From: Pseudomonadota bacterium
GTDB lineage: Bacteria > Pseudomonadota > Alphaproteobacteria > Acetobacterales > Acetobacteraceae
Assembly (NCBI GenBank): GCA_021805565.1
Contig: JAJZFA010000054.1
Span: forward strand, 92,411 to 156,410
Direction of reading: 5' to 3'
Length of the DNA stretch: 64,000 nt
The position numbers and the translations under genes are program-made. Below the pieces are notes generated by a model. That model worked only from the letters and a program-made list of their open reading frames with translations, ran no database searches and had not been told where the DNA came from. Positions 4,208 to 63,741 of the stretch are shown piece by piece (within the stretch, counting starts at the first letter, position 1; each line of letters starts with the position of its first letter).

Positions 4208-5818
4208 CTAGGTTATCCGGGGCATTTCCAGATAGGTGTGGTACGCCGGGGGTGACGTCTGGGTCCATTCCAGGGTGGTCGCGCCCTCCCCCCAGTAATT
4301 ATCCGCTACATGCGCTTTCGATGTGAAGGTGCGGTAGCAGACATAGAAGAACACCAGAAGCGCGGCACCGCCCATATACGCACCCAAGGACGATACGTAG
4401 TTCCAGCCGGCGAACGCCGCCGGGTAGTCGGGATAGCGCCGCGGCATGCCGGACAGTCCAAGGAAATGCTGCGGGAAGAAGGTCAGGTTGACGCCGACGA
4501 AGGTCAGCCAAAAATGCACCTTGCCCCAGAACTCCGGATACTGATGCCCCGACATTTTGCCGATCCAGTAGTAGAAGCCGCAAAAGATCGAGAACACCGC
4601 ACCGAGGGACAACACATAATGGAAGTGGGCGACCACGTAATAGGTGTTGTGCAAGACCTCATCGAGGCCGGCGTTAGCCAGCACAACACCGGTCACGCCA
4701 CCGACGGTGAAAAGGAAGATCATGCCGATCGCCCACAACATCGGCGTATTGAGTTCGATCGAGCCGCCCCACATCGTCGCGATCCAGGAAAAGATCTTGA
4801 TGCCGGTCGGCACGGCGATAACCAGCGTCGCGGCCATAAAGTAGGCGCGCGTATCGACATCGATGCCGGATATGAACATGTGGTGAGCCCACACGACGAA
4901 CCCGACAACGCCGATAGCGATCATGGCATACACCATGCCGAGATAGCCGAAGATCGGTTTCCGGCTGAACGTCGATACCACGTGGCTAACGATCCCGAAG
5001 CCCGGCAGGATCATGATGTACACTTCCGGGTGGCCGAAGAACCAAAACAGGTGCTGAAACAACACCGGATCGCCGCCGCCGGCGGGGTCGAAGAAAGACG
5101 TGCCGAAATTACGGTCGCAAATTAGCATAGTGATCGCCCCGGCAAGCACGGGCACGGCCAACAACAACAGGAAAGCGGTGACCAGTTCCGACCACACAAA
5201 CAGCGGCATCTTGTGCAGCGTCATGCCGGGCGCGCGCATGTTGAAAATCGTGACAATGAAATTCAGTGCACCCAATAGCGAACTCGCGCCGGCAAGATGC
5301 AACGCGAACAATGTGCAATCCATGCCCATGCCCGGTTCGTAAATCGCGTTGGACAGCGGCGGATACAGCGTCCAGCCGGACCCGGATTCACCCATCAGCA
5401 AGCCAATGCAGATCAGCACGAACGCCGGCGGCAGCAGCCAGAAGCTGATATTGTTCAACCGCGGAAACGCCATATCCGGCGCGCCGATCATCAGCGGGAT
5501 GAACCAGTTACCGAAGCCTCCGATCAAGGCGGGCATGACCGAGAAGAAGATCATCAACAACCCGTGGCTGGTGATGATCGTGTTCCACTCCTGCCCTTCG
5601 GTCACGATGTGGTTGTTCGGAAACTGCAACTGCGCGCGCATGATTTCGGACAGCAGGCCACCGAGGGTTCCCCCGACCGCCGCGAAGATCAGGTAGAGGG
5701 TCCCGATATCCTTATGGTTGGTGCTGAAAAGCCAGCGCGCCACGAAACCGGGTTTATGATCGTGCGCGTGGTCGTCCCCATGGCCGTGGGAGTGCGTATC
5801 GGAAATCGCAGCCATCAT
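4208..5818 (-). CDS. ctaD: Cytochrome c oxidase subunit I
   Basis: [52 protein letters not shown]; start set at [12 protein letters not shown]. Confidence 0.97.
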
Positions 5819-5874
5819 ATCTCTCCACTGATGTGCCGGCCGGCCGGCTGGCACCCGTTCGCGCTAATACAATC

Positions 5875-5995
5875 CTTAGGGCATGCCCGGCAATTATCGC
5901 CTGGAATTGGGGTGTCGCGCATACCCTAAGCCGAGTTTTGAGAGGGCAGCTTCGTCGTCATTCCGACGCATCTATCGCCGATCCCGTCTTTAGCC
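5875..5995 (+). repeat. Copy A of a dispersed two-hairpin intergenic repeat (more diverged)
   Basis: CTTAGGGCATGCCCGGCAATTATCGCC...GGTGTCGCGCATACCCTAAG...GGGCAGCTTCGTCGTCATTCCGACGCATCTATCGCC...TTTAGCC aligns with the copy at 11817. Confidence 0.75.
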
Positions 5996-5999
5996 AAAT

Positions 6000-6854
6000 T
6001 CATTTGGATGCGATCCTGGGAAGCACAGCCGCCGAAGCGGATTTTTTCGTCTCAGCGACCCATGCCTTGAAGTCGGCATCGGAAACCGCGCGCACGGCGA
6101 TCGGCATACGGCTGTGGTCCTGGCCGCAGATCTGATTGCATTCGCCATAGAATGTGCCGATCTGGTCGGCCTCCATCCAGGTTTCGATGGTCCGGCCAGG
6201 GATCGCATAACGCTGCACACCGAATGCCGGGATAAAGAAACTGTGGATCACATCGGAACTGGTCGTCAGAATACGGATCTTCTTGTTGACCGGAATGACG
6301 AGTTGATTATCGACGGTCAGCAAGCGGGGCTGACCCGGTTTTAAATCCTCATCGTGAACATAACGGCTTTCGACGTCCAGATTGCCTTGATCGGGATAGC
6401 TGTATTCCCAGTACCATTGATGACCGGTGACTTTGATCGTCATGTCGGGGTTCGGCGTCCGGTCCTGATAATAGATCAGCCGGAAAGACGGGATCGCGAT
6501 CACGACCAGGATCAGGACCGGAAGTACTGTCCAGGCTACCTCCAGAATCGCGTTATGGCTGGTTTGGGCCGGTACGGGGTTGCGCTTGGCATTATAGCGA
6601 TACATCACCCAGGCCAGCAGAACGGCGACCAGCAGGGTGATAACAGTGATGATGAACAGCACCAGATCGTGCAGCGCGACGATTCGATTTTTGATCGGCC
6701 CGTAGGCCTGCTGCATGCCCATTTCCCAGGGCTTTGGGCCACCGACCACACCCTGCGCCCACACCGCTGGCGCCGCCGACAGATAAAACACAAACCCGGC
6801 CAGGACCGCCAGAAGCCACTTTACCATCCGCATCGATTGACTACCCCAACTCAC
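6000..6854 (-). CDS. ctaC: Cytochrome c oxidase subunit II
   Basis: HQWYWEYSYPD, DVIHSFFIPAFGVQRYAIPGR, GECNQICGQDHSRMPI CuA site. Confidence 0.97.
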   Translation of the reverse strand: MSWGSQSMRMVKWLLAVLAGFVFYLSAAPAVWAQGVVGGPKPWEMGMQQAYGPIKNRIVALHDLVLFIITVITLLVAVLLAWVMYRYNAKRNPVPAQTSHNAILEVAWTVLPVLILVVIAIPSFRLIYYQDRTPNPDMTIKVTGHQWYWEYSYPDQGNLDVESRYVHDEDLKPGQPRLLTVDNQLVIPVNKKIRILTTSSDVIHSFFIPAFGVQRYAIPGRTIETWMEADQIGTFYGECNQICGQDHSRMPIAVRAVSDADFKAWVAETKKSASAAVLPRIASK

Positions 6855-8688: not shown

Positions 8689-8840
8689 CGTCCGGACCCC
8701 TTCCGGCTAACGGCCGACGCTGCACCGAGGACTTGCCCGGCCATTTTGGTTTCGGATAGCGACGTCAGGCCTGCCATTAAGCCCTTGTTTGCGCGGACAG
8801 CTCTATCGGCCTGCAACCGCACTTGTTATCGATACCGCCG

Positions 8841-9806
8841 TTAGCCGCCCCGTGGCGCCGCCGCCCGCCGCAGCCGGTCGTTGATCGCCAATCCCAGGCC
8901 GGCATCCGGAACCGGCATCGCCGCGATCCGCACCGCCCCCAAACGAGCAGCTTCCGAATCGAGCCAGCGCAACCCCTCGAACAGCCGCCCGGCCGCTTCG
9001 GCCGTATCGCCCGAGGCGCTGAGTTGAAAGACGCACCGAGCGCCGGCCAGCACGCCGCCGAAGGCTAATAGTGCCTCGTTGTCAGCCACCGCCGTTGCAT
9101 GCAGTCTTACCGGCAAAGCCGGCGCATAATGCGATGCCAACATGCCCGGCGACCGCATGACAGACTCGTCGCCTGGCAACCGAACCGGTCCAAGACACGC
9201 TTCCAGATTCTCCCGCGAGACCCCGCCCGGCCGCAACAGAACCGGCTCCGCACCGCTCAGGTCCAACACGGTGGATTCAACCCCGACCCGGCACGCGCCG
9301 CTATCCAGAACGGCGGCGATCCGGCCATCCAGCCCATCCAGCACATGCCTGACGGATGTCGGGCTGACCTGCCCGGACCGGTTGGCGGACGGCGCCGCGA
9401 CCGGCCGGGCGGCCGCGACCAGCAGGGCCGTCGCGGACGGATGGGCGGGCACCCGGACCGCCAGCGTGCCGAGTCCCGCGCCGGTCGCAAGCGTTACCGC
9501 ACAATCGGTCCGGCGCGGCAGCACCAAGGTCAGCGGCCCCGGCCAGAATGCCTCCGCCACCCGTTCCGCGCGCGGATTCGACACCACATCGCGAAATACC
9601 CGATCCGCCGAGGGATAATGACAAATCAGCGGATTAAGCGCCGGCCGGCCCTTGGCGGCGAATATCGCGGCCACCGCATCGGCATTCGTCGCATCGCCGC
9701 CCAGTCCGTAAACCGTCTCCGTCCCGAAAGCGACCAGCGCGCCCTGCCGCAGCAGGGCCGCCGCCTGTGCCACGCCAGCCTTGTCCGCGCTTAAAATCTG
9801 GGTCAT
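8841..9806 (-). CDS. L-threonylcarbamoyladenylate synthase (Sua5/TsaC family)
   Basis: GTETVYGLGGDATN, KGRPALNPLICHY, APSANRSGQVSPTS, SPGMLASHYAP Sua5 C-terminal linker; start at MTQILSADKAG. Confidence 0.95.
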   Translation of the reverse strand: MTQILSADKAGVAQAAALLRQGALVAFGTETVYGLGGDATNADAVAAIFAAKGRPALNPLICHYPSADRVFRDVVSNPRAERVAEAFWPGPLTLVLPRRTDCAVTLATGAGLGTLAVRVPAHPSATALLVAAARPVAAPSANRSGQVSPTSVRHVLDGLDGRIAAVLDSGACRVGVESTVLDLSGAEPVLLRPGGVSRENLEACLGPVRLPGDESVMRSPGMLASHYAPALPVRLHATAVADNEALLAFGGVLAGARCVFQLSASGDTAEAAGRLFEGLRWLDSEAARLGAVRIAAMPVPDAGLGLAINDRLRRAAAPRGG

Positions 9807-9897
9807 GCAGCAAATCAATAGCCATTCCGCATAACCATGGCAAAGGCCGCCCAGGCTGGATAAGCTGGGCAGCCGGCCCACCGGAGACGTCACATCC

Positions 9898-11379
9898 ATG
9901 CTCGATATCGCGTTCGCCAAACCCGCCTTGCCGAAAACCGGCGCGCTGGTGCTGTTGATTCATGAGGGCGAGAAACCTTCGGGCCTGTGGGCGCAGCTCG
10001 ACGACTCCACCGGCGGCGCCATCGCCCGCGCCTTCGCGGTTGCCGATTTCACCGGGGTAAAAGGCAAAACCTGTGCGATCCTGGCACCCGGCGCGGGCAT
10101 CGGCCGTGTGCTGGCCATCGGGTTGGGCAAGCCGGCCGAAACAACCCGGACAATCCTGCAAGAAGCCGGCGGCACCATCGTCGCCGGGTTGCCGCGCGAG
10201 ACCGCCGCCACCGTGACAGCCAGCGCCCTGACCGCCCAACAGGCCGCCGACGTCGCATTCGGCGCCGTGCTGCGCAGCTACCGCTTCGGCCGCTACCGCA
10301 CCAGGGAAAAGCCGGAAGACCTGCCAAAACTGGCCAAGATAACGATTCAAACAGCGGAAATTCCTAAGGCCAAAGCAGCCTGGGAACCTCTGGACGCGAC
10401 CGCGAAAGGGGTGTTCCTGACCCGTGACCTGGTCAGCGAGCCGCCAAACGTCCTGGATCCGCCGGAAATGGCGGAGCGGTGCCGCAAACTGTCGGAACTC
10501 GGGCTGAAAGTCGAAATCCTCGGCCCCCGGGAAATGTCCAAACTCGGCTTCGGTGCTCTGCTCGGTGTGTCCCAGGGCAGCGTGAAAGAGCCGCGCATGG
10601 TCGTCATGCACTGGAACGGCGCCAACGGTAACGGGCGGAAATCAAAAGAAAAACCGGTCGTGTTCGTCGGCAAGGGCGTCACCTTCGACACCGGCGGAAT
10701 CAGCATCAAAGGCGCCGCCGGGATGGAGGACATGAAGTGGGACATGGCCGGCGCCGGCACGGTGATCGGTCTGATGGCCACGCTGGCGGGGCGCAAGGCG
10801 AAAGTCGATGCCATCGGCCTGGTCGGGCTGGTGGAAAATATGCCGTCTGGATCCGCCCAACGGCCCGGCGACGTGGTCACCAGCTATTCCGGCCAGACCA
10901 TCGAAGTGATCAACACCGACGCCGAGGGGCGCCTGGTCCTGGCGGACGTGTTGTGGTACGCGCAGCAGAAATACGATCCCAAATTCATGGTCGATCTGGC
11001 GACCTTGACGGGCGCCATCATCGTCGGCCTTGGGCATGAATTCGCCGGACTGTTCAGCAACGACGATTCGTTGTCGCAAAAACTGACGGCGGCCGGTCAG
11101 GCCACCGGGGAACGGGTCTGGCGCATGCCGCTGGACGAAGCCTTCGACAAGCAAATCCGCTCCGACATCGCCGACATGAAAAATGTCGGCGGCCGGCCCG
11201 GCGGTTCGATCACCGCCGCGCAGTTCATTCAGCGCTTCGTCAACGGCAAGCCATGGGCGCATCTGGATATCGCCGGCATGGCCTGGAGCACGAAAGACGC
11301 CGCCATCGTCCCGAAAGGCGCCACCGCGTTCGGCGTGCGCCTGTTGGACCGGCTGGTCGCCGATCACTTCGAAGGCTGA
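9898..11379 (+). CDS. pepA: Leucyl aminopeptidase
   Basis: VGKGVTFDTGGISIKGAAGMEDMKWDMAGAG, NTDAEGRLVLADVL (NTDAEGRL signature). Confidence 0.97.
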   Translation: MLDIAFAKPALPKTGALVLLIHEGEKPSGLWAQLDDSTGGAIARAFAVADFTGVKGKTCAILAPGAGIGRVLAIGLGKPAETTRTILQEAGGTIVAGLPRETAATVTASALTAQQAADVAFGAVLRSYRFGRYRTREKPEDLPKLAKITIQTAEIPKAKAAWEPLDATAKGVFLTRDLVSEPPNVLDPPEMAERCRKLSELGLKVEILGPREMSKLGFGALLGVSQGSVKEPRMVVMHWNGANGNGRKSKEKPVVFVGKGVTFDTGGISIKGAAGMEDMKWDMAGAGTVIGLMATLAGRKAKVDAIGLVGLVENMPSGSAQRPGDVVTSYSGQTIEVINTDAEGRLVLADVLWYAQQKYDPKFMVDLATLTGAIIVGLGHEFAGLFSNDDSLSQKLTAAGQATGERVWRMPLDEAFDKQIRSDIADMKNVGGRPGGSITAAQFIQRFVNGKPWAHLDIAGMAWSTKDAAIVPKGATAFGVRLLDRLVADHFEG

Positions 11380-11380
11380 T

Positions 11381-11821
11381 ATGGCCGCGGCCGGGTTTTA
11401 TCACCTGACCCGGTCGCCGCTACAGCAGGCGTTGCCGCGGCTTCTCGCCCGCACGCTGGAATCCGGCCAGCGCGCGTTGATTCTGGGAACCAGTCAGCCG
11501 GCCCTGGACGCACTGAGCACCGCGTTGTGGGCCCAGCGCGTCTGGCTGCCGCACGGGTCGGCGGCGGACGGCGATCCGGACCTGCAACCGATATGGCTGA
11601 CGACCGAGGCAGAACCGGTCAACGGTGCCCGCTATTTGTTTCTGGTCGATGGTGCCGAAACCGGTCGCCTGGGCGAATTCGACCGTGCCTTCGACCTGTT
11701 CGACGGCAACACCGCCACCGCCCTCGCCGCCGCTCGGTTACGATGGCGTGCGGCAAAAGAGGCCGGTCATACCCTGACCTATTGGCAGCAGACTGAAAGC
11801 GGCTGGCGGAAAAACGCTTAG
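11381..11821 (+). CDS. holC: DNA polymerase III subunit chi
   Basis: MAAAGFYHLTRSPLQQALPRLLARTLESGQRALIL..., position directly after pepA; family-typical layout. Confidence 0.88.
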   Translation: MAAAGFYHLTRSPLQQALPRLLARTLESGQRALILGTSQPALDALSTALWAQRVWLPHGSAADGDPDLQPIWLTTEAEPVNGARYLFLVDGAETGRLGEFDRAFDLFDGNTATALAAARLRWRAAKEAGHTLTYWQQTESGWRKNA

Positions 11822-11938
11822 GCCATGCCCAACAATTATCGCTTCGGATTGCGGTGTCGGGCATGCCCTAAGCTCATGTTTTGCAAGGCAACTTTGCTGG
11901 CGTGCTGACGCACTTATTTGCCAGCGTTGCCTTAGGCC
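11817..11938 (+). repeat. Copy B of the dispersed two-hairpin intergenic repeat
   Basis: CTTAGGCCATGCCCAACA...TGTCGGGCATGCCCTAAG (hairpin 1) then AAGGCAACTTTGCTGGC...GCCAGCGTTGCCTTAG (hairpin 2); overlaps the holC stop codon. Confidence 0.85.
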
Positions 11939-54747: not shown

Positions 54748-55029
54748 ATGGATAATTTACAACATGTCTTGACAACCTTGCTGCGAATGTCGATTGAAAT
54801 TGGGAATATTTTACTCGATATGCTTGTCGCGAGCGAAGAGTGGGCGCACGACCGGCTAAGCCAGTTGGGTCTGTCAGCCAATGTTCAGACCGTTACCATG
54901 ACCACGGTGACGCTGGTCCTGATATTGTTTGCGCTACGCCTTTTCGGCGGGCTGATCCGTTTTATCGTGGTCGTGGCGTTGCTGCTGGTCGCCATTCACA
55001 TTCTGTTGCCCATACTTCCGCACTCGTAA
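54748..55029 (+). CDS. Small membrane protein of unknown function
   Basis: MDNLQHVLTTLLRMSIEIGNILLDMLVASEEWAHDRLSQ... followed by two hydrophobic segments. Confidence 0.6.
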   Translation: MDNLQHVLTTLLRMSIEIGNILLDMLVASEEWAHDRLSQLGLSANVQTVTMTTVTLVLILFALRLFGGLIRFIVVVALLLVAIHILLPILPHS

Positions 55030-55162
55030 GGCAGCACCGGCGATTGGAGCAGCCTCGGTCATAAGCGCCTCAGAACGCCGATAAAGCTTCCCGCTCAGGC
55101 TGTAGTTCCGGGCATGCCCGACGCCGCTATCCGACACGAATTATGTCGGGCGTGCCCATAAG
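55026..55162 (-). repeat. Copy C of the dispersed two-hairpin intergenic repeat (reverse orientation)
   Basis: Reverse complement CTTATGGGCACGCCCGACATAATTCGTGTCGGATAGCGGCGTCGGGCATGCCC...GGGAAGCTTTATCGGCGTTCTGAGGCGCTTAT...GCCGGTGCTGCCTTACGAG aligns along its length with the copy at 11817. Confidence 0.75.
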
Positions 55163-55168
55163 TCACCG

Positions 55169-58100
55169 TCACGACCAGGTCAGTCTGGTGCCGGATGCAC
55201 CGTCGCTCGTCAGGTGGAATGAACCGGACGCAGCGGTGTTGGCGAACGAAAATCCCATTGCCGCGATATGGGAGCCGTCGGTGACGGTCAGCATGCCGGC
55301 GGAATAATGCGCGGTCGCGGCGGCGGGATTCATATCGATGAAGTCGATTTGGTCGGAGCTTGCGAAGTCCAGGATCGAACTGCCATTCAGATATGCGGTA
55401 TAATCCCTGAAATCGATCCCCGAAAATGTCCCCGCGCTCATGACGTCGCTGCCGCCTTCGCCGCTGATGGTCTGGCCGTTCGCGGTCGCGGTAAGGTGGT
55501 CGGACCCGACCGTGCCCTGGATCATGCTCATTTGCGGCGGCCCGGCCTGCAAAGACTGTAATGTAATGACGGCGGTATTGCCGTTTGGCGCAGTGTCCAG
55601 ATGGAACGCGTTGGCGCCGCCATACGCGCCGGCAAGGTGGAGTACACCCACCGTCGCGGTGCCGTCGCTTAGAGTCAGTGTCGCGGCATTGCCGCCGGTT
55701 TGATTATAGGTCATGACAGTGATGGTCTGGTCTAGTTGAATTTGGTCGCCGGTAGCGAAACCGGTAATCGTGGCGGAGGGGATCGCTGCCAGGATCAATG
55801 TTGCGTCGGGCCCAGCGAACTGAATCGCCGCACTATCGGCCACGCCAAGCCCCAGCGTGCTGTTTTCGGCGAGCACCAACGAGCCGCTACCGCCAATGGT
55901 GGGTGTAGCGGTTGCGTAGGGGTCGCTTTCCGCTGTTCCGTTCATGTCGATAAACAGCGTGCCGCCGCCGCTGACCCACAGCGCGCCGTTGGAAACCACG
56001 CTGCCGTAAATTTGGCCGCTGAACTCGGCCGGGGCACCCGCCCCGATGCTGACGGTTCCGGCGACGGCGGGGGCGGCGCCGCCGATTTGCAATGTGGAGT
56101 TGGCATCGACCGCGAGTATGTCGCCGGCGCTGTCGCCGATCAGCCCTCCGGCTCGCACCGCACTGCCGCTCAGGACCAGCATGGAGCCGCCATACAGGAA
56201 GGCGTAGCCTGGGAAGGTCATCGAACTGCCACCGCCCAGTTCCATTCTGCCGAACACCTCTCCGGACCCGGCGGCGGTTACCACGGCGCCGGCTTGCAAT
56301 GCCAGATCGGCCGCCGGGCCGCTGCCGGTGGACACATGCACCGACGCGGCGACGTTAACCTGACCGGTTAGCATGACATTGCCAGTCACTGTCAGGTCCA
56401 CCGCCGCACCGTTGCCGGTAACCGTGGTGTATTGTCCGGCGACAGTGCTGCCCGCGATGCTAACGACATCGCCACCGCCCGGCACCGTCGCCGTGGCCGC
56501 GCCGGCCCAATTCGCGGCGGTGGTCCAGCTTCCGCCACCCATGGCCGTCCAGGCGTAGGTCTGGCCGTTCGTTCCGGCCGGGGCGGCCGCGCCGGCCGGG
56601 GCGGGCGAGGCTTGCAGCGAAATGGTGGCGACCCCGGTTCCCGGCGCGACATCGACCTGAAACACGCTGCCCGCGAAATTCCCGTCAAATGTCAGCGTAC
56701 CCACGGCGGTCCCGCCATCGGTCAGCGTCAGCGTGCCCGCGGTGCTGCTGGTCTGCGCGAAACTGGCGCCGGTCACGTTGGCATCGATCGCGATGGTGTC
56801 GCCGGCAATGAAACCGGAGATGATACCCGTCCGCGGGGTATTCCTCAGTTCCAGATGCTCCACGGCATAGGCAACGCCGTTCACGAGGTAATCCCGGAAG
56901 TCGATCGCGGCGGTATCCGCTGCGTTCAGGATCAGATAGCCATACCCGCCCAACGCGCCGATGACGATCGTGCCGGTCCCGCCAACCGATCCGATCGTGC
57001 CGCCGAACCCTTCGATTGTGCCGGAATAGACCAGCAGACTGCCGTTGACGACAACATTGGCCTCGATCGCCGCCGCACCTTGCAGCGTTACCGACTGGCC
57101 GTAATCGATTGCCAGCGTGCCTTGCGCCGCGGTCCCCGCGCTGCCGAATTCGACGCTGGATGTCCCGTCCACCGAAACCGCACCGGTAATCGTGCTGGCC
57201 CCGCCGGTCACCCTTACGGCGCTGTCGGTACCGACCGCCAGAGTCCCGGAAATGAACGTGCCGCTGCCCGATCCGGCAACCGTCAGCAGACTGTTGCTGG
57301 CAACACGCAGCAGCGAGGCGACGTTCAGGCTGCCGGCACTGAGATCGGCGCCGCTGAACAGCGCCACGTCGGCCGACGGGGTGCCATACTCGCTGACGGA
57401 AAACAGGCCCGCGACCGACATTGTCCACATCAAGATCGTGTTGGCGGAACCCGAGATGGACAGCGATGCCGCGGCAGCGGGGCCGGCGATAATCTGCGGT
57501 GTCCACGCGCCGGTATTGTCGGCGATGGTCACGGCGTTACTGGCACCGGGCGCGGCGGCCGGGGTAGCGCCCGCGGTGGTGTCGATCCAGTCGGCCGCGT
57601 TGTTCCAGTTGCCGCCTCCCGCATTGGTCCAGCTGTAACTGTCGCTGCTGCCGCTGACCGCGCTGCCGGGGCCGGCAACCGGCGTCGAGGCGTAGGTAAT
57701 GGCACTGGAAAGGCCGCCGTCCGTTGGCTGCACCTGAAACTGCGTGCCGACATAAGTGCCCGACAGCGCAAGCATGCCAACCGTGGTGCCGCCTTCCAGC
57801 AGCGCCAGCCGCCCGCTGCCGCCGAACGGGGTGTAGATCAGTTTGGTCACGATCAGCCCGGTGCTAATAACATCGCCGGCCGCGAAACCCGAGATAACGC
57901 CGGTCGGCATCGTCGTACCGAACGTCAGCATTTCCGTCGTGCCGCCACTGGCCGGCGATGTGAATTGCACCGGAACACTGTCCGATCCGGCGATAGCAAG
58001 GCTGCCGCCGCTGGTCAGATCGATCTGGCCGCCGCCAGTAACCGATGACATCACCCCACCAAAGGGCGCAACCGTCAGCATGCCGGATACCGACAACGTG

Positions 58101-60166
58101 CCGTTCACCACGACGTTGCCGTTGACCGTTCCGGCCAGTCCGGCCGTCACCCCGCTGGCGATCGTCAAGGCACCCGACGTGACGGCGCCGCCCGGCCCGA
58201 ACACGATCGACGACGTTGAATCCACGCCAATGACGGACGACGCGGTTCCGCCGCCAAGGACCGAACCGAACGTCGCCGAACCGCCTCCTGTTGCCAGCAG
58301 CGCGCCCCCGCTACCGGAGAACAGCACGCCGCCGGCGCCGGTCAGCGTGCTGCCGCCGCCAATCTCGATCAGGCCGCCGACGCTGGCCGAACCGGCCAGT
58401 ATCAGGGCGGCGCCCGCGTCCAAGGCGAGCGTCCCCGTTTGGGTCAACGACCCGCTGACACCGGCCAGCCCGCTGCCCACGTTCAGGCTTCCCCACTGCA
58501 GCACATCGCCGCTGGTTGTCACGCTGGCGGCGAAACCGTTGCCGGTAAGATCGGTGTAGGCCCCTGCCCCGCCGGCGATGGCGACTGCATTGCCATAACT
58601 GGGTGCCAGCGCGGCGATGGTGCCGGTGGTCAGATCCTGCCATTGGGATGCAGCGGCATAGCTGCCGCCCACCGTGCCGCCGAAAACGTAAGAATCCGTG
58701 TTCGCGGCGAAATACGTCACCGCCGTGCCGCCCGACCCATCGGCCGCGGCGGTAAAAAACCCAGGTGCAAGGCCGTTTGCGAAAAACAAACCGATCGTGG
58801 CGGTGTGCGTGCCGTCGGTCGCCATCAACACGGGGGATGCGCCCGGTGTGTACGACACCGATGCGGCCGCGGGGTTCATGTCCGTCAGATCGATCGTATC
58901 GGACGCGGCGAAGGACACGATCGTGCTGCCGTTCAGGTTGGCGCTGGTATCCTTGAAGTCGATCCCGGTAAAGCCACCCGAACCCAGTGTATCGTTTCCG
59001 CCCAGGCCCGTCAGCGTCTGATTGTTCGCGGTCGCGGTCAGCACGTCGGAACCGGCGGTACCCAGAACAATGCTTGGCTGAACGGGCGGAGAGCCGATGG
59101 TTTGCAAGCTGACGAACGCATCGCCCGCTGTGCCCAGATTCAGATGGAACAGGGTGCCGGCATAGTTTCCGGCAATGGCAAGCGTGCCCGCCGGTCTTCC
59201 GCCTTTGGTGAATGTCAGCGTCCCAACGCTTGCGGCGGTCTGGCTATAGGACAGGCCCGTTGCCAAGTAAGTGCCATTGCCGGATAGATCGATGACGTCA
59301 CCCGCCACGAAGCCTGTAATCGTGCCGCTTGGCAATATGTTCGCCACCAGCGTGCCAGCCGGCCCGCCAAACTGGATCGCGGCACTGTCTGCGACACCCA
59401 GCGTCAGAACGCTGCCCTCGCTGAGTGTCAAAGTACCCGCGCCCGCAATCCGCGAGGCCACACCGAAGGGGTCGCCAACGTCGATTGACAGGGTGCCCTG
59501 CGCCTGGACGCCCAGCACGCCGTTGACGATCAGGTTGCCATAGACGGCGCCGGTTATAGCCGCCGCGGCACCTTGATCGATCGTGATCGCGCCGGTAGCC
59601 GATCCGCCCGCGTGGCCGACCTCGACCGAGGAATTTCCGTCCACCGCGATGATGCTGGGGGCAAGGCCAAAGCCCATGTCGATACCGTTGGCGATCAGGC
59701 CGCCAACCTGGAGGGCGCTTCCGTCGATGGCGGTCAGAAAGCCTGCCGTCACGCTGGCAAGCCCGCTGACTGCAATGGTACTACCGCCACCTGCCTGCAT
59801 AGACGCGCCGTTGCCGATGTTCAGGCTGGCGGCGCTCAGGCTGGCACCGCCGTCGAGATTGAGATCGCCCGCCGCGCCCAGCGTAACGGTACCGCCGATA
59901 TCGATCGCGCCCCACAGCAGCACGTCGTTGCTCAGCGACAACTGCGCGGCCGCGCCGGCACCCACGATATTGGTGAAATTTCCGTTGATGCCTCCGGCGA
60001 TGGTGACCGCATTGCCTGCCCCGGGCGCGCTGCCGGCGACAAGGCCCGCCGTGATATCCAGCCAATTTGGCGCCGAATTCCACGAGCCGCCGTATTGATT
60101 CGTCCACCCATAGGCGTCTGCACCGAGCGATTGGACTTGAATGGAACTGGTTTGTTGAAAGGTCAT
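55169..60166 (-). CDS. Very large repetitive surface/secreted protein with four GGGSWxxAxNW modules and two copies of an RTX-like C-terminal module
   Basis: ORF of about 1665 aa from MTFQQTSSIQ; repeats YGWTNQYGGSWNSAPNWLD, YVFGGTVGGSYAAASQWQD, YSWTNAGGGNWNNAADWID, YAWTAMGGGSWTTAANWAG; G/S/T/A-rich low-complexity. Confidence 0.9.
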   Translation of the reverse strand: MTFQQTSSIQVQSLGADAYGWTNQYGGSWNSAPNWLDITAGLVAGSAPGAGNAVTIAGGINGNFTNIVGAGAAAQLSLSNDVLLWGAIDIGGTVTLGAAGDLNLDGGASLSAASLNIGNGASMQAGGGSTIAVSGLASVTAGFLTAIDGSALQVGGLIANGIDMGFGLAPSIIAVDGNSSVEVGHAGGSATGAITIDQGAAAAITGAVYGNLIVNGVLGVQAQGTLSIDVGDPFGVASRIAGAGTLTLSEGSVLTLGVADSAAIQFGGPAGTLVANILPSGTITGFVAGDVIDLSGNGTYLATGLSYSQTAASVGTLTFTKGGRPAGTLAIAGNYAGTLFHLNLGTAGDAFVSLQTIGSPPVQPSIVLGTAGSDVLTATANNQTLTGLGGNDTLGSGGFTGIDFKDTSANLNGSTIVSFAASDTIDLTDMNPAAASVSYTPGASPVLMATDGTHTATIGLFFANGLAPGFFTAAADGSGGTAVTYFAANTDSYVFGGTVGGSYAAASQWQDLTTGTIAALAPSYGNAVAIAGGAGAYTDLTGNGFAASVTTSGDVLQWGSLNVGSGLAGVSGSLTQTGTLALDAGAALILAGSASVGGLIEIGGGSTLTGAGGVLFSGSGGALLATGGGSATFGSVLGGGTASSVIGVDSTSSIVFGPGGAVTSGALTIASGVTAGLAGTVNGNVVVNGTLSVSGMLTVAPFGGVMSSVTGGGQIDLTSGGSLAIAGSDSVPVQFTSPASGGTTEMLTFGTTMPTGVISGFAAGDVISTGLIVTKLIYTPFGGSGRLALLEGGTTVGMLALSGTYVGTQFQVQPTDGGLSSAITYASTPVAGPGSAVSGSSDSYSWTNAGGGNWNNAADWIDTTAGATPAAAPGASNAVTIADNTGAWTPQIIAGPAAAASLSISGSANTILMWTMSVAGLFSVSEYGTPSADVALFSGADLSAGSLNVASLLRVASNSLLTVAGSGSGTFISGTLAVGTDSAVRVTGGASTITGAVSVDGTSSVEFGSAGTAAQGTLAIDYGQSVTLQGAAAIEANVVVNGSLLVYSGTIEGFGGTIGSVGGTGTIVIGALGGYGYLILNAADTAAIDFRDYLVNGVAYAVEHLELRNTPRTGIISGFIAGDTIAIDANVTGASFAQTSSTAGTLTLTDGGTAVGTLTFDGNFAGSVFQVDVAPGTGVATISLQASPAPAGAAAPAGTNGQTYAWTAMGGGSWTTAANWAGAATATVPGGGDVVSIAGSTVAGQYTTVTGNGAAVDLTVTGNVMLTGQVNVAASVHVSTGSGPAADLALQAGAVVTAAGSGEVFGRMELGGGSSMTFPGYAFLYGGSMLVLSGSAVRAGGLIGDSAGDILAVDANSTLQIGGAAPAVAGTVSIGAGAPAEFSGQIYGSVVSNGALWVSGGGTLFIDMNGTAESDPYATATPTIGGSGSLVLAENSTLGLGVADSAAIQFAGPDATLILAAIPSATITGFATGDQIQLDQTITVMTYNQTGGNAATLTLSDGTATVGVLHLAGAYGGANAFHLDTAPNGNTAVITLQSLQAGPPQMSMIQGTVGSDHLTATANGQTISGEGGSDVMSAGTFSGIDFRDYTAYLNGSSILDFASSDQIDFIDMNPAAATAHYSAGMLTVTDGSHIAAMGFSFANTAASGSFHLTSDGASGTRLTWS

Positions 60167-60634
60167 TTGATTGCTCACACCTGCCGGTTGGCGGTTTGTG
60201 CGAATAAATTGTATCGTAACGGGCTGGACCGGATGGCTGGACGCACCATCCATCGAAAGCCGGGCGGCGCGATCAGGACCGTGTTGGCAAAGCGGGTTAC
60301 CCCATCACAAACGAATGCGGCTTTTTGCCAGCGGGAACGGACGGACTGTCAGTCGCCAGAAATAACGCAATCCGAAAGTACAATCCCGACAGCGCATGTG
60401 CAAATTCGCAAACCTGCTTGATTTTGTCAAACTCGTTTTAGTTAAATATTAATAAATAAATTATACAATATTCACGCAATAATATTCAGGGAAACTGCCC
60501 GGAACGTCCGCACATCGCTCGTCCGAGGCGCCGGAAAATAAGCATTCACCGCGAATCGCGAATGCCATTATAATCGTAACAACGGCCTTCCCCTGGCGAC
60601 CCAGGGCCGGCGATGCGACCCTCGGAGCGTTCAG

Positions 60635-63487
60635 ATGACCGGCCTGACCATCACCAGCAACACGACCAACGGTTATCTCCTCGGCCCAACGACGCTTAAT
60701 CCAATCACCGTCGCATCTGGCGTGACCATTACGGACACCAATTTCCCCGCGCTCGCCAGCAGTCTTGCAACCAACTGGACGATCGTGAACGCCGGCACCC
60801 TGCTGGCAAGCGGCAAAAATATCATTAGCGACGGCATCGCGTTGCTCGGGGCCGCCGTCAGTTCGATCGCGAACCTGCAAGCCGGTTCGGTCACGGGGTA
60901 TTACGCCGGAATTTCGGTCGCAAGTCGCGGTTCGATCACCAATCAAGGTGTCATCGCCACCACCGGAACCAGCGGCGCCGGTTTCCAATATATCAATAAT
61001 CTCTTCACCGCGACGTCCGCCGGCATCCTGCTCGGCAGCGGTCAGGTCAGCAATGCGGCGCACGGGCTGATCTCGAGCTACTGGGAAGGGATAGCCATTG
61101 GCGGGGCGGGGTCAGTGGTTAACGCCGGAACGATTCGGGCGACGGGCACCGCCAACGGATTCGGCGTTGTGCTGACAGCCGGTGGCAGCATCGTAAATGT
61201 TCAGGGCGGCTCGATCGCGGGCGCAAAAGACGGTGTTCTGGCATTCGGTCCGTCTGCCACGCTGACTAATCAAGGCTCCATTTCCGGCAACCTGGTCGGT
61301 GTCGGACTGGAGTCCGGGGGCATGCTCACCAATGCGGCTGGGGCGGAAATTTTTGGCGTCAACACCGGCGTACGGTCGTTTGGTGCGAACGCCGCGAGCG
61401 TAACCAACGCCGCCGGCGGTACCCTCGCCGGCGGAAGCTACGGCTTTTTTGCCGAACCGGGGGGCACCGCCACGCTGACGAATGCGGGGCTGCTGTCCGG
61501 ACAGTCGGGGGCCGGGGCCGTGCTGCTCGATCCCGGCAGACTGGACAATATCCTGGGCGGCACGATCGTCGGCGGCATCTTTGGCATCTACATCGGCGGG
61601 ACATCCGCCGCAGCCGTAACGAACGCGGGCAGCGTCGGCGGTTACAGGTTCGGCGTGCAGGTCAATGGAACACCCGGCACGGTGGTCAACTCAGGGCATA
61701 TCGCGGACACCCAGACGCTCGCCGGAGCCGGGGTGCAGTTGGTCGCCGGCGGGCTGGTGACCAATAACGCGGGCGGCACCATCGCATCGCAATGGATGGG
61801 CGTACAGATTGGCACCGGAACGTCCAGCGTCGGCGGCACGGTCGTCAACCAGGGCACAATCCACGCCGCCGACACCCTTGGCGATGGCGCCGGGGTATGG
61901 ATTCACGGCCCCGGTGCCATCGTCAACGGATCAGGCGGCATAATCAGCGGCGGCGCATTCGGCGTCGTGGCCTATTACCAGACGACCGTGGTAAATCAGG
62001 GCACGATTTTTGGAACCGGATTTGCCTTCGACGCCGTCCATTCCGGCTTTGCCAATCGCGTCATCGACACATCCACGGGCGTCTTCATCGGCACCGTGGC
62101 CGGCGGCAACTCGCTTGGGTCGGCCATTTACAGCACGCTGGAACTGGCCAGCGGATCCTCGGTTGGCACCATCGCCAACATCGGCAGCTTTACCGGTTTC
62201 GGCCGGATCGCCCTGGATAACGGCGCAACCTGGTCGGTCGGCGGATCCATGGCGGCCGGCGAAACCCTGGCATTCGGCGGGCCGAACGCCACACTGATCC
62301 TGGCAAGCCCATCGGCCGCGGCCTCCACGATCGCCGGTTTCGTTGCCACCGATACCATCGTGCTCGCCGGTGTCGCGGACGTTACCGGCCTGGCGTTCAA
62401 CGGCAATACGCTGACGATCGCGGAAAGCACCGGCCCAGGCCTGACGCTGACCTTTGCCGCGCCGTTGGCACTGACCCGCACGGTGACGAACGGATCGACC
62501 GACATTTCCGTCGTCCCCTGCTTTCTGCCCGGCACACACATCCTGACCAGCCAGGGCGAAGTGCCGGTGGAGAAGCTGCGCATCGGCGACACGATCGTCA
62601 CCGCCGGCGGCGACCGGCGGCGTCTGTGCTGGATCGGCCACGGCCGGACTCTCGCCGCGCGCGGCCGGCGTTCGGCGGCCACACCCGTTATCGTGCGCAA
62701 GGGCGCCCTGGCCGCCAACGTGCCTGCCCGAGACCTGCGCATCACCAAGGGTCACTCACTTTACCTCGATGGCGTGTTAATTCCGGTGGAATTCCTGGTG
62801 AACCATCGGTCCATTTTATGGGACGACCGGGCGCAGGACGTAACCGTGTACCATCTGGAACTGGACGCGCACGACATCCTGGTCGCCGACGGCGCGCATG
62901 CGGAAAGTTACCGCGACGACGGCAACCGCTGGCTGTTCCAGAACACCAACGAAGGCTGGTCCGGGACACCGCAACCGCCCTGCGCGCCGGTCCTGACCGG
63001 CGGCGCCCAGGTCGATGCGATCTGGCGGCGCATCCTGGACCGGGCGGGCCCGCGTCCAGGATTGCCGCTGACGGACGATCCGGACCTGCACCTTCTGGCC
63101 GGCGGTGCACGGATCGACGCCGCCAAACGCCAGGGTTCGGTCTATGTCTTCAGCCTGCACGCCCCGCCGGCCGGGCTGCACATCGTCTCACGCGACGCCG
63201 TCCCGGCCGAACTCGGGCTGGCCCGCGACGCGCGGCCGCTCGGTGTCGCCCTGCGCCAAATCGCGATCCGGCAAGGCACGCGATTCACGGTCCTGCAGGC
63301 CGCCGACACCCGCCTGACCGACGGCTTCCACGGCTACGAAGCGGCCGAAGATCTGCGCTGGACCGATGGAGACGCGACGCTGCCCAGCGAACTATTCGCC
63401 CGCTTCGCCGGTGAAATGGAGGTGGTACTGCATCTCGCCGGAACCACCCGGTACCGGGAGGATGGGCCGGCTTCGGCGATGGCCTGA
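60635..63487 (+). CDS. Beta-helix repeat protein with Hint (Hedgehog/intein, Hint_2-type) domain and C-terminal extension
   Basis: Repeats ITNQGVIATTG / VVNAGTIRATG / LTNQGSISGN; Hint block VVPCFLPGTHILTSQGEVPVEKLRIGDTIVTAGGDRRRLCWIGHGR...DLRITKGHSLYLDGVLIPVEFLVN. Confidence 0.93.
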   Translation: MTGLTITSNTTNGYLLGPTTLNPITVASGVTITDTNFPALASSLATNWTIVNAGTLLASGKNIISDGIALLGAAVSSIANLQAGSVTGYYAGISVASRGSITNQGVIATTGTSGAGFQYINNLFTATSAGILLGSGQVSNAAHGLISSYWEGIAIGGAGSVVNAGTIRATGTANGFGVVLTAGGSIVNVQGGSIAGAKDGVLAFGPSATLTNQGSISGNLVGVGLESGGMLTNAAGAEIFGVNTGVRSFGANAASVTNAAGGTLAGGSYGFFAEPGGTATLTNAGLLSGQSGAGAVLLDPGRLDNILGGTIVGGIFGIYIGGTSAAAVTNAGSVGGYRFGVQVNGTPGTVVNSGHIADTQTLAGAGVQLVAGGLVTNNAGGTIASQWMGVQIGTGTSSVGGTVVNQGTIHAADTLGDGAGVWIHGPGAIVNGSGGIISGGAFGVVAYYQTTVVNQGTIFGTGFAFDAVHSGFANRVIDTSTGVFIGTVAGGNSLGSAIYSTLELASGSSVGTIANIGSFTGFGRIALDNGATWSVGGSMAAGETLAFGGPNATLILASPSAAASTIAGFVATDTIVLAGVADVTGLAFNGNTLTIAESTGPGLTLTFAAPLALTRTVTNGSTDISVVPCFLPGTHILTSQGEVPVEKLRIGDTIVTAGGDRRRLCWIGHGRTLAARGRRSAATPVIVRKGALAANVPARDLRITKGHSLYLDGVLIPVEFLVNHRSILWDDRAQDVTVYHLELDAHDILVADGAHAESYRDDGNRWLFQNTNEGWSGTPQPPCAPVLTGGAQVDAIWRRILDRAGPRPGLPLTDDPDLHLLAGGARIDAAKRQGSVYVFSLHAPPAGLHIVSRDAVPAELGLARDARPLGVALRQIAIRQGTRFTVLQAADTRLTDGFHGYEAAEDLRWTDGDATLPSELFARFAGEMEVVLHLAGTTRYREDGPASAMA

Positions 63488-63640: not shown

Positions 63641-63741
63641 ATAAGTGCGTCAGCACGCCAGTAAGGTTGCCCTGCAAAACATGGCCTTAGGGCTTGCTCG
63701 GCACTGCCGATTGTAGCGGTTGTTGCCGGGCATCGCCTAAG
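63641..63741 (-). repeat. Copy D of the dispersed two-hairpin intergenic repeat (reverse orientation; may extend to about 63620)
   Basis: Reverse complement CTTAGGCGATGCCCGGCAACAACCGCTACAATCGGCAGTGCCGAGCAAGCCCTAAGGCCATGTTTTGCAGGGCAACCTTACTGGCGTGCTGACGCACTTAT; the last part is nearly identical to the copy at 11817. Confidence 0.85.

Follow-up and report, generated by a model that had tools for sequence, protein, structure and literature searches.

We found that a ~110-bp non-coding, intergenic repeat of an Acetobacteraceae genus is mobile: the TNA triplets at its two ends match, and a precise duplication of TAA can be read against an uninterrupted paralogue. The repeat is very probably a non-autonomous, MITE-like element of a CIR-type branch, mobilised in trans, perhaps by a candidate transposase of the IS5 family. 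In the mechanism that we propose, an element made of two palindromic arms and a short linker would insert at (C)TNA(G) with duplication of the three bases TNA, a small number of master lineages giving rise to bursts of new copies. The hairpin arms would change jointly between masters, and decay in inserted copies would be one-sided. An IS5-family DDE transposase, with IS1031/IS427-type sites, would work on the element in trans, and the paired arms would matter mainly for the mobility that it drives.

The repeat was recognised in a 64-kb stretch of the host draft genome, the whole of which is called the window here (Table 1). A preliminary description had reported four copies in it (A to D). 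All four are present where it placed them and can be aligned with one another, as pairwise Smith-Waterman scores ranged from 19 to 60 against null means of 8.5-9.9 and none of 500 shuffles scored as high. The count itself was one too low, because a fifth, older copy (E) is also present, whose alignment with copy D taken alone is near chance. Copies A, C, D and E have decayed or are members of other subfamilies, and D lacks a complete second hairpin. When folding was compared with shuffled sequence, only copy B did better (z = -4.6, against 0.3 for A, -1.4 for C and -1.3 for D). Copy D adjoins a gene for a 950-aa protein with a Hint_2 domain (60635-63487), and a 1694-aa open reading frame without a Pfam match occupies 55169-60253 on the minus strand.

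Table 1. Copies of the repeat in the window, parts of copy B, and the gene that it abuts
Feature	Position	Strand	Remarks
Copy B, element proper, subfamily I	11821..11931	+	bounded by two TTA duplicates
Left TTA target-site duplicate, copy B	11818..11820	+	
Right TTA target-site duplicate, copy B	11932..11934	+	
Hairpin 1, copy B	11817..11872	+	arms CTTAGG.CATGCCC / GGGCATG.CCTAAG
Linker CTCATGTTTTGCAA, copy B	11873..11886	+	corresponds to TTTGTTTT in distant relatives
Hairpin 2, copy B	11887..11931	+	GGCAAC.GCTGGC / GCCAGC.GTTGCC, inner GTGCTGACGCAC
Copy A, older subfamily III	5875..5995	+	in the gap separating COX2 (6000-6854, -) and COX1 (4208-5854, -)
Copy E, old, decayed	8725..8846	+	meets the 3' end of Sua5 (8841-9920, -)
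Copy C, old, divergent	55026..55162	-	
Copy D, resembling subfamily II, with an incomplete right hairpin	63641..63741	-	near the contig end
holC (DNA polymerase III chi subunit)	11381..11821	+	stop codon made across the left junction with copy B

The family extends far beyond the window. A blastn search with copy B returned ~43 places, 83-98% identical to the query, in the 4.49-Mb draft genome of the host, and a covariance model (R1) trained on 26 copies gave at least 147 matches in the host genome. A family limited to four copies is therefore not borne out, and the many further copies support the MITE-type family that had been put forward as one possibility. In an unbiased sample of 446 kb (contigs C58 and C45, which include the window and were chosen without regard to the repeat), ~28 copies scored at least 25 bits, compared with none in five replicates shuffled by a first-order Markov model; extrapolation from this density gives ~280 copies genome-wide. 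An element copy lies within about 300 bases of a contig end in 14 of the 64 contigs of the draft (C1, C2, C4, C5, C6, C10, C22, C27, C45, C48, C54, C55, C58 and C60), which probably means that the assembly was interrupted by the repeat.

Three subfamilies were distinguished, namely I with GGCCATGCCC arms, II with GGAATTGCCC arms, and III with GGGCAGCTTTATCGGC within hairpin 2. Recognisable copies occur in 12 of the 33 genomes of the host's genus, at 1 to more than 100 per genome with some of the matches weak, and pattern matches were found in the named Acetobacteraceae metagenome records JANXTL01, CAIRCM01 and CANJLW01. The arm sequence is specific to the species (GGCCATGCCC in the host, GGCCCTGTCC in G028, GGGCCTGTTC in G015 and TGCTTGTTC in G021), and the complementary arm is always present. 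Outside the genus, the exact own-type pattern had no match in named genomes, and a relaxed pattern matched Acetobacteraceae genomes only; no member of the family was found in viral contigs and plasmids. Tandem copies also occur, with the joint GCCTTAGGCC common to neighbours. Units consisting of hairpin 2 only, bounded by CTAAG, stand in tandem in the host genome (C60 and C16), and a lone unit of this kind with CTAAG on both sides lies in a relative (L152; CANJLW01, about 4767-4899). Given these tandem copies and partial units, the two arms may move or duplicate separately.

We then analysed the ends of the copies. The TNA triplets matched at both ends in 45 of 52 copies (33 TTA/TTA, 10 TAA/TAA and 2 TGA/TGA; 7 mismatched), a number reached in none of 100,000 permutations, the maximum of which was 40; a first count had given 34 of 38. 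Outside the triplet, C and G were preferred, so that the full target reads CTNAG. The one empty site found lies in a duplicated gene of the same genome. Its uninterrupted paralogue on contig C30 reads GACTAACCGCATGCCC, while the sequence at the filled site (C58:275968) is GAC-TAA-element-TAA-CCGCATGCCC; the TAA that was duplicated serves this gene as its stop codon. A 229-aa gene without a Pfam match (L022:815-1504, L215, L216 and L217) has near-identical copies on C58, C43, C30 and C18 and many weaker relatives across the genus, and looks multicopy or mobile-associated.

Stop codons recur at the junctions of the element. The TAG stop of holC (11819-11821) consists of the TA of the left duplicate and the first base, G, of copy B; element-free holC genes in at least 15 relatives (16 loci listed) end at the same residue with TGA, TAA or TAG. 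A gene stop codon stands at a junction in 33 of 99 copies, against 17-21% expected from non-coding TNA or CTNAG sites (p = 0.005 to 6e-5), a comparison that is indicative only since it relies on a home-made gene finder. A stop codon survives the insertion for two reasons: both TAA and TGA fit TNA, and TTA followed by the first G of the element supplies TAG. Insertions on or beside a stop codon are consequently tolerated and persist, and selection for harmless insertions suffices to account for the enrichment. We do not claim active targeting of stop codons, as they are enriched only 1.6-2 fold relative to TNA or CTNAG sites that lie outside genes.

To characterise the hairpins, we compared base pairs across lineages and within young copies. 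Among 30 cross-species sequences, 14 of 30 pairs had changed on both sides; such changes filled 93 cells, where column shuffles gave 34.8 and slid controls no more than 16. Compensatory change between lineages is thus strong in both hairpins, in favour of the element family suggested by the preliminary description. Stem substitutions in young copies of subfamily I comprised 20 that break a pair, 7 that keep a wobble and none that is compensated. This looks more like decay than like a role as RNA where the copy has landed, and the mobile RNA-level regulator that had also been suggested found no support in it. Subfamily II contains 9 compensated pairs, which may be polymorphisms of source copies or compensation in place. 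Young copies carry substitutions at 2.1% in stems versus 6.1% in loops, a difference that could alternatively reflect selection on the structure in place. With the stem and loop rates and the compensation in subfamily II as caveats, we read this as a structure that is needed in mobile source copies and decays once inserted.

These data bear on the strongest competing explanation, in which the repeat is a functional RNA (a terminator, an mRNA 3' stabiliser, an RNase site or a methylation-linked regulator) kept at each place for the benefit of the host. Such a role would fit the strong covariation, the lower variation in stems than in loops, the many copies that directly adjoin gene 3' ends (the same 33 of 99) and the partial match of distant members to a Brucella small-RNA model. 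However, pairs are broken without compensation in young copies, the copies form species-specific bursts with precise target duplication, and some lie between divergent genes, while a stop-codon enrichment of at most about two-fold is expected if gene-sparing insertions survive. We therefore consider a host-maintained RNA unlikely and retain the reading of a transposase-mobilised element.

Two other modes of spread fare worse. An element copied through RNA by reverse transcription, helped by a retron or group II intron, might be suspected from the two stable hairpins and a structure conserved by covariation, but it is very improbable, given that a short duplication of fixed length, inside a target that is palindromic (CTNAG), indicates a DDE transposase and that many copies are full-length. 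The BIME/REP elements to which the preliminary description had likened the repeat, moved by a RAYT (TnpA-REP) Y1 transposase, are still harder to credit: the repeat is palindromic, intergenic and of high copy number, but the sole Y1_Tnp gene of the genome looks IS200-type, is unlinked, has no copies on its flanks and is missing from all five other carriers, and the element has a 3-bp target duplication, which Y1 transposition is not known to make.

We next consider the enzyme. The preliminary description had noted that the window contains no matching transposase; this holds, and none that matches at both ends was found in the genome either. We searched the host genome and five carriers with the transposase families PF01609 and PF13586 and an IS1031-like protein, and checked the ends of the candidates for inverted repeats beside TNA or TA. 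This search yielded partial resemblances only and no autonomous insertion sequence matching both ends of the element, whose own termini form short, imperfect inverted repeats (GGC.A.GC). Within the IS5 family, target sites are TNA in the IS1031 type and YTAR in the IS427 type. On the basis of these target sites, the layout of the open reading frames and Pfam matches, we take two insertion sequences to be IS1031-like and IS427-like, respectively. The IS1031-like one, with a TTA duplication, occurs in the relative G028. The IS427-like one lies in the host genome (L051:930-1918, contig C8) and has the ends TA-GGGCCTGT; its end agrees with the left ends of the element at 8 of 8 positions in G015, 7 of 8 in G028 and 7 of 8 in G007, and its repeat agrees with the right end at 3 of 8. 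The TTA duplication, the IS427-like ends and the YTAR contexts of distant members of the repeat, YTAR being also the target of Brucella IS711 (below), make the IS5 family the best candidate. Since none of the transposases found matches both ends and the right end agrees at only 3 of 8 positions, we regard action of an IS5-family DDE transposase in trans on the element ends as plausible, if slightly short of probable.

We further extended the analysis to more distant relatives. A second model (R2) gave weak matches in five other Acetobacteraceae genera, and these share the order hairpin, CTCTAG, TTTGTTTT linker, hairpin, CTCTAG; a blastn search with one such locus found Komagataeibacter and Shinella plasmids. 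In the superfamily alignment, both-sided changes affected 25 of 27 pairs and amounted to 100 cells, where shuffling gave 30.0 and sliding at most 23, and a joint model matched in 33 of 289 alphaproteobacterial genomes from many families. Distant members lie in CTAG or TTAA contexts, that is, YTAR. GANTC is present in most of the 24 distant loci listed and in 10 of 125 copies in the host genome; in the sister species G028, G015 and G021, the loop of hairpin 1 carries GAATC, which is a GANTC site. The Rfam model BASRCI27 (Brucella sRNA CI27) matched distant superfamily loci below its gathering score, at best with 52.9 bits (E 1e-8). The models BASRCI27 and BASRCI408, both Brucella small RNAs, match the superfamily members L285, L275, L276, L272, L265 and L278, and those RNAs may accordingly be copies of dispersed repeats.

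Several known repeat classes resemble the element, and CIR, Bru-RS and RIME were compared by their descriptions. CIR, the CcrM-associated intergenic repeat of Caulobacter, has as its hallmark GANTC, the CcrM site, and is described as ~110 bp long, intergenic, with two arms joined by a linker and TA termini, in many alphaproteobacteria (Chen and Shapiro 2003; as presented in PMC2229807); a 2008 review states that its target duplication is unknown and that its movement needs more information (PMC2229807). The element likewise is ~110 bp long and intergenic with two long hairpins and a linker, but GANTC is rare in the host copies, the arm sequences differ, and the duplication is TNA rather than TA, with an empty site. 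As far as their descriptions go, Bru-RS1 and Bru-RS2 are palindromic intergenic repeats of 103-106 bp in Brucella (Halling and Bricker 1994; PMC2266754, PMC10800456). Brucella IS711 duplicates the TA of YTAR and has a reported preference for the palindromic Bru-RS as a target (PMC2266754). The element is a similar palindromic alphaproteobacterial repeat of ~110 bp in intergenic regions, but an Rfam search with the window copies, the Brucella small-RNA models included, returned no match. The rhizobial intergenic repeat RIME (Rhizobium-specific intergenic mosaic element) is outlined as conserved in sequence and secondary structure (Osteras 1995; PMC2573895), and the Shinella (Rhizobiaceae) loci show a hairpin-TTGTTTTT-hairpin anatomy. 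ERIC, RUP and Correia elements are short, non-autonomous and intergenic, duplicate their target and are presumed to be moved in trans by insertion sequences (PMC2229807, PMC10969869). The element shares these features, whereas theirs is one end-to-end stem with TA-type ends, in place of two arms, a linker and a TNA duplication. On architecture and on the alphaproteobacterium-wide model, the element is best read as a divergent, fast-evolving branch of the CIR/Bru-RS/RIME type that was amplified recently. More tentatively, and with some doubt, these repeats might all be IS5-mobilised MITEs whose common form uses YTAR/TA, the Acetobacteraceae branch having switched to TNA (IS1031-type).

The class of repeat is thus known, and what is new is the target duplication, the empty site, the use of TNA instead of TA, and the tolerance at stop codons. 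Two-arm intergenic repeats span many alphaproteobacterial genomes, and the movement of CIR is still little understood (PMC2229807). A young, abundant and species-specific family offers direct evidence of insertion and a system for finding the enzyme. For the draft genome, many contig breaks are probably due to the repeat. The family also provides an example of a selfish element that occupies stop codons without breaking genes. If the proposal is true, the switch to TNA would allow gene-sparing insertion at stop codons and hence hundreds of copies.
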